Both the position numbers and the translations under genes were made by a program. This document shows, piece after piece, positions 38,991 through 48,584 of a stretch of DNA of 64,000 nucleotides; positions within the stretch are counted from its first letter, which is position 1; every line of letters starts with the position of its first letter. Source of the stretch: Hydrogenobacter thermophilus TK-6. Its GTDB lineage: Bacteria > Aquificota > Aquificia > Aquificales > Aquificaceae. The stretch spans positions 248,001 to 312,000 of the forward strand of contig NC_013799.1 of assembly GCF_000010785.1 (NCBI RefSeq), written 5' to 3'. Below the pieces are notes generated by a model. That model was not told where the DNA came from. It did no database searches and was given only the letters and a program-made list of their open reading frames with translations.

Positions 38991-41900
38991 GTGGGGGCAC
39001 CATCCACCGACCTTAGTTTCATAACCAACGAGGGGGGTATAAGTCTAAAAGACAGACTGCTTGCACTCATAAAAGACTGTGAGACTTTTGACTGTATAGT
39101 GGGGTACTTTTACCTTAGCGGTTTTCATCTCATATACAAGGCTTTGGAAAATACAAAAAAGATAAGGATACTCACAGGTATGGGCATAGACCCAAAAAGC
39201 GCTCATATCATACACTCCGCCAAGGAAATAAAAGAAAAAGCACAAAAGAAGATGGAAGAAGAATTGGAAGATTGTGAAGACTCCTACGAAGTGGAGTCCG
39301 CTATAAGAAGGTTTGTAGAGTGGATAGAGTCAGGAAAGCTTGAGATTAAAGCTTATCCTGACGGCAGACTTCACGCAAAGGTTTACATAATGACCTTTAG
39401 GGAAGGAGACAGGGACTTAGGAAGAGTAATTACAGGCTCCAGCAATCTTACTCAATCCGGTCTTGAGGGAAACTTGGAGTTTAACGTAGAGCTAAAAAAC
39501 AGAGCTGATTATGAGTATGCCAAAAAAAAGTTTGAGGAGCTTTGGAGTCAAGCGGTAGATATAACGGAGGATTACGTTAAAACCATAACAGAAAAAACAT
39601 GGCTCAACGATAAGATAACACCCTATGAGCTATACCTTAAGTTTTTGTATGAGTACTTTAGAGACGAGCTTAAGGCAGGTGATTTTGAGCTAAAACTCCC
39701 AAGTGGTATCAAAAGGCTAAAATACCAGGAACAGGCTGTAATAAACGCAAAGAGGATACTGGAAGCTTATGGAGGCGTCTTTATATCCGACGTAGTAGGG
39801 CTTGGAAAGACTTACATCACCGCCATGCTACTAAAACAGCTGGATGGTAGAACCGTAGTGATAGCACCCCCCAACCTGATAGATGAAAAGAATCCCGGTT
39901 CGTGGGTAAATGTGCTAGACAGTTTTAAAATAAATGCCAGATTCTTTTCCACAGGAAAGCTGGACGATGCCATATCTTACATACAAAGCAAAGACTCGGA
40001 GGATCCGATAAAGAACGTAGTCATAGACGAGTCTCATCGCTTCAGGACAGAGGACACCAAAAGCTACGAAAAGCTTGCGCAAATATGCCGTGGAAAAAGA
40101 GTCATACTTGTTTCCGCAACGCCCTACAACAATCACCCCATAGACATCCTATCCCAGCTAAAGCTTTTCCAAAGCCCCAGAAAGAGCCTCATACCAGGAG
40201 TTCCAAACCTTGAAAGCTTTTTTAAAAAGCTTGATAAGAAGCTAAAGGAGGCAAAAAAAGAAGGAGAGGAAGAGTATGTAAGAGTCTCCAGAGAGGTATC
40301 AAAAGAGATAAGAGAGAAGGTGCTAAAGCATGTGATGATAAGAAGGACCAGGAGGGACATACTTAATTACTTTAGAGAAGATATAGATAAGGAAGGCATT
40401 AAGTTTCCGGAAGTTGAGCCACCAAAACCCATCTACTACCAGCTTGAGAAAGAAGAGGACGATATTTTTATGGAAACTCTGAGAATTCTAACCAAAGATA
40501 TCAAGTACTCTAGGTACAAAGTGCTCACCTACCACAAGAATGAAGACATAAGAAACAAATTGCTAACCTCTCAGAAAAACTTGGCCACCATCATGAAGAT
40601 ACTGCTGGTAAAAAGGTTAGAAAGCAGCTTTCACGCTTTCAAGAACAGCATAAACAGATTTGTAAAGTATTACGAGAACTTTATAAAGGAGTACGAAAAA
40701 GGGCATGTCTATGTAAGCAAAGAGCACATAAATAAGCTTTTTGAGCTATTAGAAGAGGAAGACTACGAAGCCATAGAGAAGCTAATAGAAGAAGATAAGG
40801 TACAAAGATACCCAAGGGAAGAGTTTTTTGAGAAGCTGGAAAAAGACCTTTATGAGGATTTGAGCTCTCTGAGAAGAATAAAGCAGATGTGGGATAATAT
40901 AAAGAGAGATCCAAAATTGGAAAAACTTATAAAAGAGTTAGAGGAAAACCCTATTTTAAAGAATAATAAGGTAATAATCTTTACCGAATCAAAAGAAACT
41001 GCGGAGTACCTTTATCAAGAGCTTACCAAAAAGTTTGGAAATACGGTTCTTCTATTCCACGGAAGCGCTTCGGAAAATCATAAAGAATTGCTTATTAAAA
41101 ACTTTGATGCCAACCTTCCGCAAAAACAACAAGACAACACATACAGAATGCTGGTAACTACAGACACTTTGGCAGAAGGTATAAACCTACACAGGTCAAA
41201 CATCATAATAAACTATGACATCCCTTGGAACCCCACAAAGATTATACAGAGAGTTGGAAGAGTGAACCGTATTGGCACCAAGTTTGACACTATATATGTT
41301 TTTAACTTCTTCCCTACGGAGAAAGCAGACAGTGAGATAGAGCTTACCAAAATAGCCAGGTCAAAAGTGGAAGCCTTCTTAAACATGTTAGGAGAAGACT
41401 CTGCCATCCTAACACAGGATGAGCCAGTAGCTTCTCATGAACTCTTTGACAAGCTTGTCTCAAAAGAAGTCCTTGAAGAGGATAAGGAAGAGGAGAGCGA
41501 GATCAAGTACCTAAGAATCATTGAAGAGATTCGTGATAAAGACCCAAAACTTTTTGAAAAAATAAAGCATCTTCCCAAAAAAGCCCGCTCTTCAAAAAGG
41601 TTTTCAGAGAGTTTAAGAGATATTGCTTCTTCCAATTCTTTGCTCACCTTCTTTAGAAAGGGCAAACTAATGAAATTCTTTTTGTCAGACAAAGAAAAGA
41701 CTGTTGAACTTGACTTTTTAACGGCAGCCAAGATCCTTGAAAGTCAACAAAATGAAAAAAGAGCTGAGTTCCCACCGTCTAAAGATTTTTATGAGCTATT
41801 TAACAAAAACAAGGAAGCTTTTATGAATGCTACTGAGGATGAAATAGTTGAAACGCATAGGCAAGCTGGTAGAAGTAGTTATAATGACCTTTTGAAAATT

Positions 41901-42215
41901 CTTAAGGCAGTGCTAAGAAATGGCAAAGAACTAACTGAGGAGCAGCAGGAGTATTACAAAACTCTGATAAATCGCCTTGAAGAAGGTGCCATCCCTAAAA
42001 AAACAGTTCAAAAAACGCTTAAGGAACTAAACGCGCTCAAAGAAGACATACAAGACCCTATAAAAGTGCTAAGCGTCTGCCAGCGTACCATACCATCTGC
42101 TTTACTCAAAAGCCACTATGCCCAGGCTCCTGCTTTAGAGGAAAGCAAGAGGGAGGTTATACTATCTTTATACCTACAGGGTGATGAGCACCACAAATAT
42201 TTTGGAGTTGATTAA
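38991..42215 (+). CDS. PLD-nuclease/SNF2-type helicase defence protein
   Basis: A 1074-residue protein. An N-terminal phospholipase-D-like domain carries H128-A-K and GSSNLTQSG; the usual Asp of HxKxxxxD is Thr. A superfamily 2 helicase follows with Walker A SDVVGLGKTY (about 270), DESH (346), SATPYNNHP, TTDTLAEGINL and RVGRVNRIG (about 755). Helicases of this shape accompany DNA methylases in restriction-like anti-phage systems (DISARM DrmD and related loci). Translation starts at GTG 38991 with TAAAAT 6 bp upstream. The next gene starts immediately after its stop. Confidence 0.85.
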   Translation: MGAPSTDLSFITNEGGISLKDRLLALIKDCETFDCIVGYFYLSGFHLIYKALENTKKIRILTGMGIDPKSAHIIHSAKEIKEKAQKKMEEELEDCEDSYEVESAIRRFVEWIESGKLEIKAYPDGRLHAKVYIMTFREGDRDLGRVITGSSNLTQSGLEGNLEFNVELKNRADYEYAKKKFEELWSQAVDITEDYVKTITEKTWLNDKITPYELYLKFLYEYFRDELKAGDFELKLPSGIKRLKYQEQAVINAKRILEAYGGVFISDVVGLGKTYITAMLLKQLDGRTVVIAPPNLIDEKNPGSWVNVLDSFKINARFFSTGKLDDAISYIQSKDSEDPIKNVVIDESHRFRTEDTKSYEKLAQICRGKRVILVSATPYNNHPIDILSQLKLFQSPRKSLIPGVPNLESFFKKLDKKLKEAKKEGEEEYVRVSREVSKEIREKVLKHVMIRRTRRDILNYFREDIDKEGIKFPEVEPPKPIYYQLEKEEDDIFMETLRILTKDIKYSRYKVLTYHKNEDIRNKLLTSQKNLATIMKILLVKRLESSFHAFKNSINRFVKYYENFIKEYEKGHVYVSKEHINKLFELLEEEDYEAIEKLIEEDKVQRYPREEFFEKLEKDLYEDLSSLRRIKQMWDNIKRDPKLEKLIKELEENPILKNNKVIIFTESKETAEYLYQELTKKFGNTVLLFHGSASENHKELLIKNFDANLPQKQQDNTYRMLVTTDTLAEGINLHRSNIIINYDIPWNPTKIIQRVGRVNRIGTKFDTIYVFNFFPTEKADSEIELTKIARSKVEAFLNMLGEDSAILTQDEPVASHELFDKLVSKEVLEEDKEEESEIKYLRIIEEIRDKDPKLFEKIKHLPKKARSSKRFSESLRDIASSNSLLTFFRKGKLMKFFLSDKEKTVELDFLTAAKILESQQNEKRAEFPPSKDFYELFNKNKEAFMNATEDEIVETHRQAGRSSYNDLLKILKAVLRNGKELTEEQQEYYKTLINRLEEGAIPKKTVQKTLKELNALKEDIQDPIKVLSVCQRTIPSALLKSHYAQAPALEESKREVILSLYLQGDEHHKYFGVD

Positions 42216-45200
42216 ATGAACAGGGAGCAGGCAAAAAGGTTGGTGATTGAGACTTTTGAGAATCCTTTTGATGAAAAAAAGTTTATTGAATTCATTGCCA
42301 ATCTACTTAAAACCTATGACAGAAGTAAGGCGCTTGAACCAAGGAGCGGAATTCAGGGGATAACAGAAAGGTACTTAGACTTTATTAGCTCTTGGAAGAG
42401 GATAGGTAGGTATGAGGATGAGGACGGCAGGAAGATAGATATTCTAATAGTCTATTTAAAAAAGGAGACCTCTTTATATCGCGCCCGGACAGCTCAAAGA
42501 AACTTCGTAGCAGAATACCTACAAGGCAAATTGGGAACAGACTCTAAGAAGTATGCTGCACTTGTGGCTTTTGTTTCTTCACCAGAGGATTGGAGATTTT
42601 CCCTTGTAAAAATGGATTATAAATTTGTAGGGGGTAGGGTTAAAGAGGAGTTTACACCTGCAAAAAGGTTTTCCTTTTTGGTGGGTAAAAACGAAAAGAG
42701 CCACACAGCGCAGAGCAGGTTTTTGCCTTTGCTGGAAAGCGACAAGTATCCAACGCTGGAAGATTTGGAAGAGGCTTTTAATGTTGAGGTTGTAACGGAA
42801 GAATTCTTCAGAAAGTATAGAGATCTATTTATAAGGACTAAACTTGAGCTGGACAAAATTGTTCAAACTAATCCAAAAGTTAGGCAGGAGTTTGAAAACA
42901 AAAACATTAACACGGTTGATTTTGCCAAAAAGCTTCTGGGTCAAATTGTGTTTTTGTATTTCCTGCAAAAGAAGGGGTGGTTTGGTGTTAAAAGAGGTGC
43001 ATCTTGGGGCAGTGGTCCAAAGGACTTTATAAGAAGGCTCTTTAATGGTGAGTATGGAAAGTACGATAACTTTTATAACGATATTTTGGAACCTTTGTTT
43101 TATGAAGCTCTGAGAACCGACAGGAGCGCAGATGATCACTACTATAGCAGGTTTAATTGTAAAATTCCATTTTTAAATGGTGGACTTTTTGACCCAATAA
43201 ACAATTTTGACTGGGTAAATGTGGATATTCTTTTGCCCAATGAACTTTTCTCAAATAAAAACAAAACAAAAGAAGGCGACATTGGAGATGGCATTCTTGA
43301 TGTGTTTGATAGATACAACTTTACAGTAAACGAAGAAGAACCTCTTGAAAAAGAGGTCGCCCTTGATCCAGAGCTTCTTGGAAAAATCTATGAAAAGCTT
43401 AATGCTATAAGACCTGACAATTTTGATGAATATGTAAAGGTTTTAAAGTCTGGCAAAAAGGGTGATGAGACAAAGTTCAACAAAGAGTATGGAGTTTACT
43501 ACACACCGAGAGAAATAGTTCATTACATGTGTCAGGAAAGTTTGATAAATTATCTTGAAACAGAGCTTGCAGGAAAAGTAAAAAGAGAAGACTTAGAAAA
43601 ATTTGTAAGATATGCTGATCTTTTTTTGGAGCACGAAAGAACCGCCTTTGAAAAAAGAGAAAGGATTGAAAGAGGTGAACAAAAAGAGACAAAGTACGAG
43701 CATAGGATACCCGAAAGTATTATTCAAAACGCAGAGCTTATAGACAAACTTCTTGCTGATATAAAAGTTTGCGATCCTGCGGTTGGGTCTGGGGCTTTTC
43801 TTGTTGGTATGATGCATGAAATTGTAAAGCTAAGGCAATTGCTTTCGGTTTATAAAAGTAGCACAGGCATTCCTGAAAGTAGCACAGGCACAGGCATTTC
43901 TGCCTGTGATACTTACGGTGAAGGTGAGTTAAAAATCACGCGACGTAATCTTCCTCATTGGACCAAACCAGGTTCTATCTATTGGGTTACCTTTCGGTTA
44001 GCAGATTCCCTACCGCAGGAAAAACTACGCCAATGGAAAGAAGAATACGAGATGTGGTTAAAGCGTAATCCTAAGCCATGGAACGAAAAGCAGTGGAAAG
44101 AATACAATGAAAAATTTGGTGAGCGAATAGAAAAGTGGTTAGATAGTGGCTACGGTTCCTGTATTTTGGCAAAACCAGAAGTTCGTGAAATATTAAAAGA
44201 ATGTCTTTTCAAGTTTGATAAAGAACGATACTTAATACATGCGGTAGTTATAATGCCCAATCATGTCCATTTATTAATAGAGCCATTTTCTGGATATTCT
44301 CTTTCAGAATTATTAAAAGGCATAAAAGGAGCAAGTGCATACTATATCAATAAACTTCTCAATTCCACTGGTAATAAAGTTTGGATGGAAGAATCCTATG
44401 ACCATATTGTCAGGAGTGAAAAAGAATATCTCCGCTTTGTTCAGTATATTATAGATAATCCGAAAAAAGCTAACTTACCTGATGATAAATACTGGCTGTA
44501 TGTATCACAAACAGCAATGTCTGTGGTACATGGTGTAAAACAGGCAATCTTGCCTGTAAGTGAGAAAGAAACACAGAAAGGAACTTTACAGACAGGAATG
44601 TCTTCACAGACAGGAATGTCACAACAGACAGGAATGTCTGTGCTACATTATGACCTTAAGCGCCACTGTATTGAGAATTCCCTTTATGGAGTTGATATAG
44701 ACCCTGGAGCTGTTGAGGTGTGTAGGCTGAGGTTTTGGCTTTCTTTAGTGGTGGATGAGGAAGATTTTTATAGCATAAAACCGCTTCCTAACCTTGATTA
44801 TAAGGTGGTGCAAGGTGATTCGCTTTTGGGAGTTGAAAAAAATCTGTTCAATCAGGAAGATTTTAGAAAGTTAGAGGAGCTTAAAAAGAAATATTTTAAC
44901 GAGGCTAACCCAAGGCAAAAGCAAAACTACAAGAGACAGATTGACGAGCTGATTTATAAAATAACTAACGGGCATAAAGAGTTTGATTTTAGGGTTTATT
45001 TTTCTGAGGTGTTTCATGAAAAAGGTGGCTTTGATATTGTGATAGGAAATCCGCCGTATGTAAGGCAAGAAAGAATTAAACACCTAAAACCTAAGCTTGA
45101 AAAGGCATACAAAGATTTCTTTGTTTCCACGGCTGATCTTTATACATACTTTTATAAAAAATCCTATGATATCCTGAGAAAAAACGGGGTGCTTTGCTTT

Positions 45201-46442
45201 ATTTCAAGCAACAAGTGGATGAGGGCAAAGTATGGAGAAAAATTGAGAAAGTTTTTGAAAGAAAACACAAAGGTTATTGAAGTTGTGGACTTTTCGGGCT
45301 ACAGAGTTTTTGAGCAAACTGTGGACACTAATATAATCACTCTTTTGAAATCCAAACCAGAAAAAGGGCATTTGGTAAGCTTTGTTAATGTAGGAAGTGA
45401 TGTTGATGATGATGTTATAAAATACATCAGAAACAATAAGAAAACCATATTACAAGAGAAACTCTCTGACAGCGCCTGGACACTTGCAGAAGACAAGGTT
45501 TTGGCAATAAAAGAAAAGATAGAAAAAATAGGAACACCTTTAAAGGATTGGGATGTGAAAATTTATCGTGGAGTTTTAACAGGTTATAATGAAGCCTTTA
45601 TTATTGATACAGAAACGAGAAACAAAATCCTTGCTAATTGCAAAACAGAGGAAGAGAGAAAGAGGACAGAAGAGATAATCAAGCCGGTTTTGAGAGGTAG
45701 AGATATTGAAAAGTGGAGGTACAAGTGGGCGGGGTTGTGGTTGATTTATATTCCTTGGCATTTCCCTTTACATAATAATCCTAATATTTCTGGAGCTTCA
45801 AAGGAGGCTGAAGAAAGACTAAAGCAATTATATCCCTCTCTTTATGAACATTTGCTTAAATACAAGGAAAAACTTTTAAATAGAAATAAGGAAGAAACAG
45901 GAATAAGGTACGAATGGTATGCTTTGCAAAGATGGGCATCAGATTACTATCCTGAATTTGAAAAGGAAAAAATTGTGTGGCAGAGGGTGACGCAACAATT
46001 CTCATTTTGTATAGTTCCAAAAGGGATTTATGTTCTTGATTCTATGGCTTTTATGGTTGGGAATAATCTTCGCTTTTTAATAGGAGTTCTAAATTCGCGT
46101 CTTATTGACTATTATATAAGAACTTATGTCCATCAATATGCTGATAAAGGTTTTCTACTTTCCAACCAATATGTAGAACGCATACCCATTCCCAAAGTCC
46201 CCTCATCCCAACAAAAACCAATCATTGACCTTGTGGATAAGATACTTGAATGTACCACAGGCACTTTTGCCTGTGATTATAAAAACACAGACAAGAATGT
46301 CCATGCTACATCTGACTATGAAACAAACCAGCAAAAGCAAGCCAGAGTAAAAGAACTTGAAAAACAACTTGACCAGCTTGTTTATAAACTTTATAATTTA
46401 ACAGAGGAAGAAATTAATATTATAGAAGGAAATAAAATATGA
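42216..46442 (+). CDS. Eco57I-class DNA adenine methylase with in-frame transposase insertion
   Basis: A 1408-residue open frame. Residues about 1-515 are N-terminal restriction/coupling-like sequence. SAM motif I is D520-P-A-V-G-S-G-A-F and catalytic motif IV is N945-P-P-Y. Target recognition and coiled-coil regions follow. Residues about 548-810 do not belong to the family: they are a RAYT transposase domain with its REP hairpins. The methylase resumes in frame at YDLKRHCIENSLYGVDIDPGAVE. A second REP-pair insertion lies at about 1347-1365. It is presumably the modification (or modification plus restriction) partner of the upstream helicase. Whether the enlarged protein folds and methylates is unknown. 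Confidence 0.85.
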   Translation: MNREQAKRLVIETFENPFDEKKFIEFIANLLKTYDRSKALEPRSGIQGITERYLDFISSWKRIGRYEDEDGRKIDILIVYLKKETSLYRARTAQRNFVAEYLQGKLGTDSKKYAALVAFVSSPEDWRFSLVKMDYKFVGGRVKEEFTPAKRFSFLVGKNEKSHTAQSRFLPLLESDKYPTLEDLEEAFNVEVVTEEFFRKYRDLFIRTKLELDKIVQTNPKVRQEFENKNINTVDFAKKLLGQIVFLYFLQKKGWFGVKRGASWGSGPKDFIRRLFNGEYGKYDNFYNDILEPLFYEALRTDRSADDHYYSRFNCKIPFLNGGLFDPINNFDWVNVDILLPNELFSNKNKTKEGDIGDGILDVFDRYNFTVNEEEPLEKEVALDPELLGKIYEKLNAIRPDNFDEYVKVLKSGKKGDETKFNKEYGVYYTPREIVHYMCQESLINYLETELAGKVKREDLEKFVRYADLFLEHERTAFEKRERIERGEQKETKYEHRIPESIIQNAELIDKLLADIKVCDPAVGSGAFLVGMMHEIVKLRQLLSVYKSSTGIPESSTGTGISACDTYGEGELKITRRNLPHWTKPGSIYWVTFRLADSLPQEKLRQWKEEYEMWLKRNPKPWNEKQWKEYNEKFGERIEKWLDSGYGSCILAKPEVREILKECLFKFDKERYLIHAVVIMPNHVHLLIEPFSGYSLSELLKGIKGASAYYINKLLNSTGNKVWMEESYDHIVRSEKEYLRFVQYIIDNPKKANLPDDKYWLYVSQTAMSVVHGVKQAILPVSEKETQKGTLQTGMSSQTGMSQQTGMSVLHYDLKRHCIENSLYGVDIDPGAVEVCRLRFWLSLVVDEEDFYSIKPLPNLDYKVVQGDSLLGVEKNLFNQEDFRKLEELKKKYFNEANPRQKQNYKRQIDELIYKITNGHKEFDFRVYFSEVFHEKGGFDIVIGNPPYVRQERIKHLKPKLEKAYKDFFVSTADLYTYFYKKSYDILRKNGVLCFISSNKWMRAKYGEKLRKFLKENTKVIEVVDFSGYRVFEQTVDTNIITLLKSKPEKGHLVSFVNVGSDVDDDVIKYIRNNKKTILQEKLSDSAWTLAEDKVLAIKEKIEKIGTPLKDWDVKIYRGVLTGYNEAFIIDTETRNKILANCKTEEERKRTEEIIKPVLRGRDIEKWRYKWAGLWLIYIPWHFPLHNNPNISGASKEAEERLKQLYPSLYEHLLKYKEKLLNRNKEETGIRYEWYALQRWASDYYPEFEKEKIVWQRVTQQFSFCIVPKGIYVLDSMAFMVGNNLRFLIGVLNSRLIDYYIRTYVHQYADKGFLLSNQYVERIPIPKVPSSQQKPIIDLVDKILECTTGTFACDYKNTDKNVHATSDYETNQQKQARVKELEKQLDQLVYKLYNLTEEEINIIEGNKI
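43858..44646 (+). mobile_element. RAYT (REP-associated Y1 transposase) element inside the methylase gene
   Basis: The insert encodes RRNLPHWTKPGSIYWVTFRLADSLP, the HUH motif MPNHVHLLIEP, KGASAYYIN-like and FVQYIIDNPKKANL, all typical of TnpA_REP/RAYT transposases. Left end: two GTAGCACAGGCA copies and a perfect 8-bp hairpin CACAGGCA-TTTC-TGCCTGTG (43889-43908). Right end: a hairpin ACAGGCA-ATCT-TGCCTGT (44540-44557), three copies of ACAGACAGGAATGTC, and GTGCTAC. The outer 12-bp ends are inverted repeats with one mismatch. The span is 789 bp, an exact multiple of three, and stays open in the methylase frame. Confidence 0.85.
46252..46309 (+). repeat. solitary REP pair (transposase-less copy) in the methylase 3' region
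   Basis: GTACCACAGGCA-CTTT-TGCCTGTG (hairpin 46256-46275) is followed by ACAGACAAGAATGTC and a closing GCTAC. This is the left and right ends of the RAYT element without the transposase, 58 bp long. It adds about 20 residues in frame. Confidence 0.75.
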
Positions 46443-47917: not shown

Positions 47918-48238
47918 ATGAATAGAGAAAAAATCACAAGAAAAGATGAAGTTATTGAAAAACTCAGAGAAAATATGGGTAAGCTTAGAGAATTTGGAGT
48001 TAAAAGAATAGGCATCTTTGGTTCAGTTGTTAAAGAAGCTCTCAGAACTGATAGCGACATTGATTTAATTGTTGAATTTGAAAGAGGAAAAGCGACCTTT
48101 AAGAATGTCTCTGGACTTATTGATTTTCTTGAAGATTTATTTGGGAGAAAGGTTGATATTCTCACGCCAGATGGTATCGCTTCCATCAGAATTTCACATA
48201 TAAGACATCAAATAGAAAGAGAAATTGAATATGTATAA
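47918..48238 (+). CDS. mntA: MntA-type nucleotidyltransferase antitoxin
   Basis: The 106-residue minimal nucleotidyltransferase has IGIFGSVVKEALRTDSDIDLIVEF, the GSx10DxD catalytic motif. MntA antitoxins inactivate the HepT toxin by adding AMP to a tyrosine. AAGGAG precedes ATG 47918. It overlaps hepT by 8 bp, the standard order for this toxin-antitoxin pair. Confidence 0.9.
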   Translation: MNREKITRKDEVIEKLRENMGKLREFGVKRIGIFGSVVKEALRTDSDIDLIVEFERGKATFKNVSGLIDFLEDLFGRKVDILTPDGIASIRISHIRHQIEREIEYV

Positions 48239-48584
48239 GAGGGGAGATAGAGAATTTGTCTTAGATATGCTTTTTGCATGTAATAAAATTATGAACTACA
48301 CAAAAGGTCTAACTTATGAAGATTTCAAGAAAAATGAAATGGTTATTGACGCCGTAACCAGGAATATAGAAATTCTTGGAGAAGCTTCTAAATCCATTTC
48401 AGATGGTCTTAAAAATAAATACCCTGAGGTTGGCTGGAAAGAGATAGCAAGAACTCGCGATAAAATAATCCACTTTTATTTTGGTATTAATCTTGAAATA
48501 ATATGGGACATTGTTATAGAAGATATACCTAAGCTTAAAACTGAGCTTGAAAAGATCATTAAATTAGAAGGTTGGAGTTTATAA
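48231..48584 (+). CDS. hepT: HepT-type HEPN ribonuclease toxin (DUF86)
   Basis: A protein of about 117 residues with the DUF86 helical fold (AVTRNIEILGEASKSIS, GWKEIARTRDKIIHFYFG). It contains the Rx4HxY RNase motif (RDKIIHFY), whose Tyr is the site AMPylated by MntA in characterised pairs. It is coupled to mntA. It probably stabilises the island or acts in abortive defence. Confidence 0.88.
   Translation: MYKRGDREFVLDMLFACNKIMNYTKGLTYEDFKKNEMVIDAVTRNIEILGEASKSISDGLKNKYPEVGWKEIARTRDKIIHFYFGINLEIIWDIVIEDIPKLKTELEKIIKLEGWSL

Follow-up and report, generated by a model that had tools for sequence, protein, structure and literature searches.

The closest described systems are the RAYT/TnpAREP REPtrons of the IS200/IS605-like Y1 HUH type, with which the unit reported here shares the HUH and Y---NP motifs, the GTAG-tagged hairpins opposed at the two ends and the 4er8 fold. 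Known REPtrons are free-standing genes, whereas this unit forms a domain of another enzyme and has neither start nor stop. GTAG-guided single-strand cleavage has been measured for TnpAREP other than the one studied here (PMC8266576). Additionally, GTAG/CGTC REPs located inside ORFs are often dimers and are biased to DNA synthesis and repair genes, and REP-encoded inserts span 20–30 aa with a maximum of 43–82 aa (PMC3733652). Both these REPs and our insert are read in frame, but the latter is ~264 aa long and includes a transposase. Rickettsia palindromic elements (~150 bp, described with a short ORF; PMC10969869) are also mobile palindromes translated in functional genes, while here the transposase itself lies inside the gene.

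Inteins share with this RAYT an in-frame address, patchy presence and spread through horizontal allele exchange. However, inteins have a splicing domain, whereas the RAYT has none, lies in loops rather than active sites and would leave its product in the protein. IStrons (PMC4227781) are comparable in that the transposon is harmless to its host gene, yet they rely on a self-splicing intron, and none was found in our unit. The eukaryotic fusions SETMAR and CSB-PGBD3 likewise join a transposase to a host enzyme, but they are single recruited fusions that arose via exon capture or alternative splicing, in contrast to the repeated in-frame insertion and retained mobile ends of the RAYTs. A survey of TnpAY1 excluded 'unexpectedly long proteins', which it attributed to fusions or errors of annotation (PMC6006769). 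Short REPs in genes and in-frame Rickettsia palindromes are already known; whole in-frame RAYTs appear to be new, no description of them having been found in a search confined to open-access papers.

An in-frame RAYT inside a type IIG restriction gene

The window analyzed here is a 64,000-nucleotide stretch of Hydrogenobacter thermophilus TK-6 (G000:C1:248001-312000), whose 1.74 Mb genome is a single contig with 99.99% completeness. The host gene matches the PADLOC profile PDLC03596 REase_MTase_IIG with 1120 bits, and its Pfam matches are Eco57I and TaqI_C, with the Eco57I MTase located at residues 821–1032. The family profile together with MTase motifs I (DPAVGSGAF) and IV (NPPY) identifies it as a type IIG enzyme. 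The initial annotation had placed DPAVGSGAF correctly at residues 520–528 and had described a 789-bp unit with imperfect inverted ends, comprising a RAYT kept in frame within a DNA methylase gene and flanking REP hairpins translated as linkers, all of which our analysis bears out. Specifically, the inverted arms AAAGTAGCACAGGCATTCCTG / CAGGAATGTCTGTGCTACATT are 21 nt long and 90% complementary, the insert spans host residues 548–811, and the three hairpins within it are all in frame (Table 1).

At host residues 653–754, the insert is matched by the Pfam model Y1_Tnp (E 2e-9) and the NCBIfam model REP_Tyr_transpos (2.4e-17). The RAYT passes the Pfam PF01797 cut-off (38 vs 23 bits) and misses that of NCBIfam NF047646 (63–66 against 80 bits), which is a curated threshold and not a biological feature; the LPHW subclass aligns only from about position 27 of the model. 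The AlphaFold model of the RAYT core has a pLDDT of 80, and Foldseek retrieves Y1 transposases for it, including 4er8 TnpAREP (E 1.4e-4); the joined MTase and RAYT segment (residues 378–1014) was modeled with a pLDDT of 47, too low to be informative.

Table 1 Features of the locus (window coordinates; A1 is a profile of eight RAYTs)
Feature	Position	Strand	Details
PLD + SNF2-type helicase, upstream operon partner	38991..42215	+	PADLOC HKD+Snf2 and DrmD matches
Type IIG restriction enzyme-methyltransferase (host gene)	42216..46442	+	1408 aa, ~1143 aa without insert
In-frame REPtron, GTAGC...GCTAC, 789 bp	43858..44646	+	Loop between MTase motif I (DPAVGSGAF) and YDLKRHCIENSLYG
Left REP hairpin ACAGGCA-TTTC-TGCCTGT, read as TGISACD	43890..43907	+	DNA fold z -5.1
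RAYT (Y1/HUH transposase) core	43932..44495	+	Host residues 573-760; Pfam/NCBIfam, AlphaFold, Foldseek
HUH motif NHVH	44259..44270	+	Invariant in A1/A3
Presumed catalytic Tyr of Y---NP motif (YIIDNP)	44445..44447	+	Invariant in A1/A3
Right-side REP hairpin ACAGGCA-ATCT-TGCCTGT	44540..44557	+	Hairpin search
Three 18-nt in-frame direct repeats (xQTGMS x3), from REP half-sites	44584..44637	+	
Right terminal REP hairpin ACAGACA-GGAA-TGTCTGT, then GCTAC	44624..44641	+	Hairpin search
Second in-frame REPIN-like insert near C-terminus, translated TGTFACDYKNTDKNVHAT	46255..46310	+	REP hairpin + degenerate inverted REP ending GCTAC

The usual RAYT trait, a free-standing gene with its own start and stop, is absent. 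The host ORF is unbroken across the insert, the first stop being that of the methylase, and no in-frame ATG, GTG or TTG occurs between the left end of the insert and the conserved RNLPHW motif. In 17/21 stand-alone RAYTs of the same subclass, by contrast, an ATG lies no more than 40 codons ahead of this motif. Lacking start and stop, the insert is readable solely as an extra domain of its host, and the predicted linker peptides of the fused product are TGISACDTYGEGELK and TGMSSQTGMSQQTGMSVLHYDLK.

As in other RAYT units, GTAG-tagged REP hairpins flank the core in inverted orientation (GTAGC...GCTAC ends), and, as with codogenic REPs and RPEs, a palindromic element lies in frame in an otherwise intact gene and is missing from homologues. 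Four REP hairpins were observed in the window, a number that no shuffle reached, versus 0.19 expected by chance, and the single-stranded hairpins fold well below shuffles. The fourth hairpin (46257–46274), which the initial annotation had missed, belongs to the C-terminal REPIN-like insert, which was not found in any homologue compared.

Two further observations concern the neighborhood. The segment 46563–47894 joins a TcmP-like N-terminal half to a DUF5131 missing its first ~83 profile positions, and looks like two adjoining defence genes (PADLOC PDC-M30A/M30B) fused via deletion. Directly downstream of the restriction locus, two small ORFs spotted by eye at 47918–48584 read like a MNT nucleotidyltransferase/HEPN (type VII) toxin-antitoxin pair.

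Distribution and history of the unit in its methylase family

We scanned one genome per bacterial or archaeal species with the insert as query, the comparison genomes being mostly MAGs, and found seven relatives, all in frame within the same methylase family. Six of them (L040–L045), from MAGs assigned to Omnitrophota, Ignavibacteriota, Acidobacteriota or lineages without a name, have this unit at one shared position, hereafter site A. The RAYT of the seventh, L046, lies in another loop, after MCQESLINYL, and its own site A holds REP hairpins only. The locus is therefore not the single case that it had first appeared to be, and its arrangement, found independently in seven other assemblies, is neither chance nor a local assembly error. 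No relative of the insert was found in the 135 other genomes of the window's phylum and no further RAYT in the window genome, which leaves this unit as the only RAYT found in 136 phylum genomes. Its absence from these relatives suggests that the host gene probably entered the genome horizontally, RAYT included; that different phyla share the unit in one and the same enzyme implies that it has moved horizontally together with the restriction locus. The A1 profile found no relative in IMG/VR; plasmid tblastn returned only two distant matches with <32% identity. The phylum of G137 (the genome of L041) yielded no more relatives at the cut-off except two partial stand-alone matches, and the search in the phylum of G141 covered 2 genomes. 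In another member of the methylase family, L115 (G469:C67), we observed a different Y1 transposase class in frame directly before GGFDVVIANPPY (residues 554–691), together with another short tag at site A, NNGLKPIVASSTRS, perhaps from a second palindrome family.

Alignment with insert-free homologues, which the initial annotation had called for, defined the junction. The closest ones, L011 (G057, same family) with 69% identity over 1100 aa and L022 with 58%, read ...IVKLRQLLSVY-TGKEIKT-YDLKRHCIENSLYG... and ...VY-TKNNLSN-YDLKRH..., respectively. The RAYT unit thus stands in place of 7 loop residues (TGKEIKT / TKNNLSN), and these short loops indicate that the segment is not an ancestral part of the methylase. 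Related methylase families show natural variation of tens of residues in the insertion loop.

Between site-A copies, dN/dS is 0.10–0.26 for the RAYT and 0.04–0.19 for the host segments; judged by codon substitutions, RAYT and host are both under purifying selection. RAYT and host divergence run parallel in most site-A pairs, which suggests that the insertion is old. Hosts with the insert at site A do not form one clade in the host tree (AU p 1.2e-4), and the insert-free L011 and L022 are placed among them; this interleaving means that the insert was lost, replaced or gained more than once. L040 and L041 share a recently exchanged block comprising the RAYT, ~100 codons upstream and ~50 downstream (codon identity 0.90 vs 0.65, p 6e-11). 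Precise transposition was considered for this low-divergence block and rejected, because the block reaches into the host flanks, as ordinary homologous recombination would produce. As far as sequence comparison can tell, the unit is old and co-inherited in this methylase family, and is one instance of a recurrent in-frame lifestyle.

In-frame RAYTs in other genes and the placement of REPs

We used A1 to search 396 genomes of Acidobacteriota and 395 from the phylum to which the Ignavibacteriota MAG belongs, and kept for host checking those loci whose RAYT lay within a long open frame. Hosts were checked by Pfam, NCBIfam, PADLOC and PDB alignments, and members of families already checked were read from the translation. 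In-frame RAYTs occupy at least about 15 host-sites in at least about 30 loci, counts that are lower bounds because neither search was exhaustive, with at most 6–11 candidates scored per genome, and the HUH motif is present in all in-frame copies. Methylase and restriction hosts include three type IIG families (that of the window at three loops), HmaB-type DUF1156 (two loops), type III Mod, PglX-like and HsdR (two loops). The others are PriA, acetyl-CoA synthetase (two loops) and RecG (L154), the last truncated by a contig edge and counted as provisional. In PriA, the 3'-DNA-binding domain (13–114) and the helicase (471 on) flank the RAYT (183–362). In acetyl-CoA synthetase, the alignment with a solved structure ends at residue 392 ahead of the RAYT and resumes at 400 behind it, with 7 residues missing. 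DNA-handling genes (methylase, restriction, repair helicase) account for ~13/15 host-sites, for which the chance is 6e-8 even when such genes are allotted 20% of coding space; this null ignores insertion tolerance and shared ancestry, so it shows the enrichment and leaves its cause aside.

Two other long frames, L114 (CarB) and L104 (aminotransferase), were not counted as internal, since the RAYT is read through only at the N-terminal end. In L114 (4659–8525) no stop separates the RAYT from the beginning of CarB, the large subunit of carbamoyl-phosphate synthase, and the two may form an N-terminal fusion. In the type IIG enzyme L102, about eight tandem ~21-aa REP-derived units (RVEQAFLPVTQQQTQTEMSLSRS) lie in frame at residues ~1190–1365, directly before the catalytic NPPY.

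The in-frame habit is concentrated in one subclass. With a general RAYT model in 347 Acidobacteriota genomes, counted by eye among the matches listed, long internal frames occur in 6/11 RAYTs of the LPH[WF] type (matching from model position 22) versus 1/~144 others (p 2e-7), and the sole long frame among the latter is CarB, an N-terminal read-through. In a tree of 62 in-frame and stand-alone RAYTs, the in-frame ones form several groups intermixed with stand-alone ones; the positions of the in-frame copies L115, L152 and L154, which have long branches, are uncertain. The L046 RAYT, from the second loop of the window's enzyme, is sister to that of L102 in another type IIG family (99/97), and the RAYT of PriA branches from within the acetyl-CoA synthetase RAYTs (100/93). 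In the second type IIG family, L102 and L148 carry their RAYTs in one and the same loop, and these two RAYTs are not sisters. Sister RAYTs in unrelated hosts and non-sisters in one loop indicate that these elements moved between frames and entered the same loop repeatedly.

Hairpins are concentrated around the RAYTs. At distances of up to 150 nt from the cores of in-frame RAYTs, those with a stem of at least 7 reach a density of 10.1/kb, versus 1.55/kb elsewhere in the same ORFs, and their tags vary by group, being GTAG/CTAC in the window and GGGAG/CTCCC beside HmaB and PriA. All four copies of the exact hairpin ACAGRCANNNNTGYCTGT in the window genome lie within the host methylase gene, and no copy occurs in the insert-free kin G057 and G032. 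The exact hairpins of G142 (10/10), G138 (7/7, a count inferred from the seven found in L042) and G139 (10/10) also lie inside the methylase or its helicase partner, so that 31/31 exact cognate hairpins of the four genomes fall within one restriction operon. These copies are not independent events, as the arrays may partly be tandem duplications. Only G137 has a genome-wide hairpin population (58 copies, mostly of the loop variant ATTCTT/AAGAAT). Every REP hairpin copy in L040–L046 is read in frame. The PLD/SNF2 helicase gene of the same operon also carries in-frame REPs in two relatives, as arrays at 2524–2748 of L043 and 2037–2117 of L041. The confinement of REPs to the operon may reflect a founder effect upon arrival in REP-free genomes, or a preference of the RAYT for its own gene.

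Explanations and implications

We consider it likely that the unit is an autonomous REPtron, a RAYT with GTAG-tagged REP hairpins, residing in frame in a permissive type IIG loop as a splice-less, intein-like hitchhiker. RAYT and methylase would be made as one fused polypeptide, in which the methylase would fold and work around the inserted domain. The RAYT would nick REP ends in single-stranded form, guided to its sites by GTAG, and on very rare occasions paste itself or a REPIN into another loop, while selection would purge frame-breaking insertions. The unit would spread chiefly as a passenger of a restriction locus that is both mobile and addictive, and through homologous allele exchange. 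Several points count against such a hitchhiker: the site-A insertion looks old and domain-like rather than freshly mobile, the one recent exchange (L040/L041) was ordinary homologous recombination and no precise jump, most comparison genomes are MAGs, and so marked an excess of DNA enzymes among the hosts might mean that the fusion is useful. A recruited fusion of this kind is the main rival, in which selection would have favoured an HUH nuclease/ligase domain as a functional component of defence or repair enzymes, maintained because the host profits, for instance from additional single-strand nicking to counter phage or at stalled forks. It is in keeping with the predominance of methylase, restriction and repair-helicase hosts, the retained catalytic residues, the low dN/dS and the old co-residence at site A. 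Nevertheless, close kin have insert-free versions of the same enzyme, insertion sites vary among relatives, sister RAYTs reside in enzymes as unrelated as acetyl-CoA synthetase, and REPs also stand alone at other loops. Moreover, the guide-tagged hairpins kept beside the RAYT would be needless for a pure protein domain, and we regard a recruited fusion as rather unlikely.

The initial annotation had weighed the same pair, hiding in the manner of an intein or a recruited fusion, and this choice was apt; neither a Hint domain nor an intron was detected. A self-removing intein, IStron or intron would fit an in-frame position within a conserved gene and the interleaved insert-free alleles. However, Pfam matches include no Hint domain, the junction reads ...MSVLH/YDLKR without a C-terminal HN, and Rfam gave no intron, group I included, which makes splicing scarcely credible. 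It is only slightly easier to picture a passenger in a decaying gene, that is, a recent chance in-frame insertion that inactivated the methylase and is soon to be lost. Restriction genes are often lost or replaced and the insert lies near the SAM site, but the same insert is in frame in seven diverged methylases of several phyla, the low host dN/dS is that of a constrained gene, and all motifs are intact; we hold this reading to be very improbable. An assembly or binning artefact might be suspected because the relatives are mostly MAGs, but the contiguity and completeness of the window genome and the recurrence of the junction architecture in unrelated assemblies render its probability negligible.

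Building on the hitchhiking REPtron, we tentatively envisage a class of translated, splice-less transposons, in which a RAYT subclass may live as a protein domain and pass between reading frames in the loops of DNA-handling enzymes. REPs might then be confined to the operon because the nascent fusion would act on its own gene while transcription leaves that DNA single-stranded. The system offers ready tests, of an own-gene preference of RAYT-REP activity and of DNA enzymes as usual hosts. In-frame RAYTs may also account for the 'unexpectedly long' RAYT proteins of the TnpAY1 survey (PMC6006769). Together, our data indicate that a whole transposase, beyond a short palindrome, can persist in working genes through frame-keeping, and RAYTs, usually described as domesticated, gain a visible route of spread by hitchhiking in mobile restriction loci.
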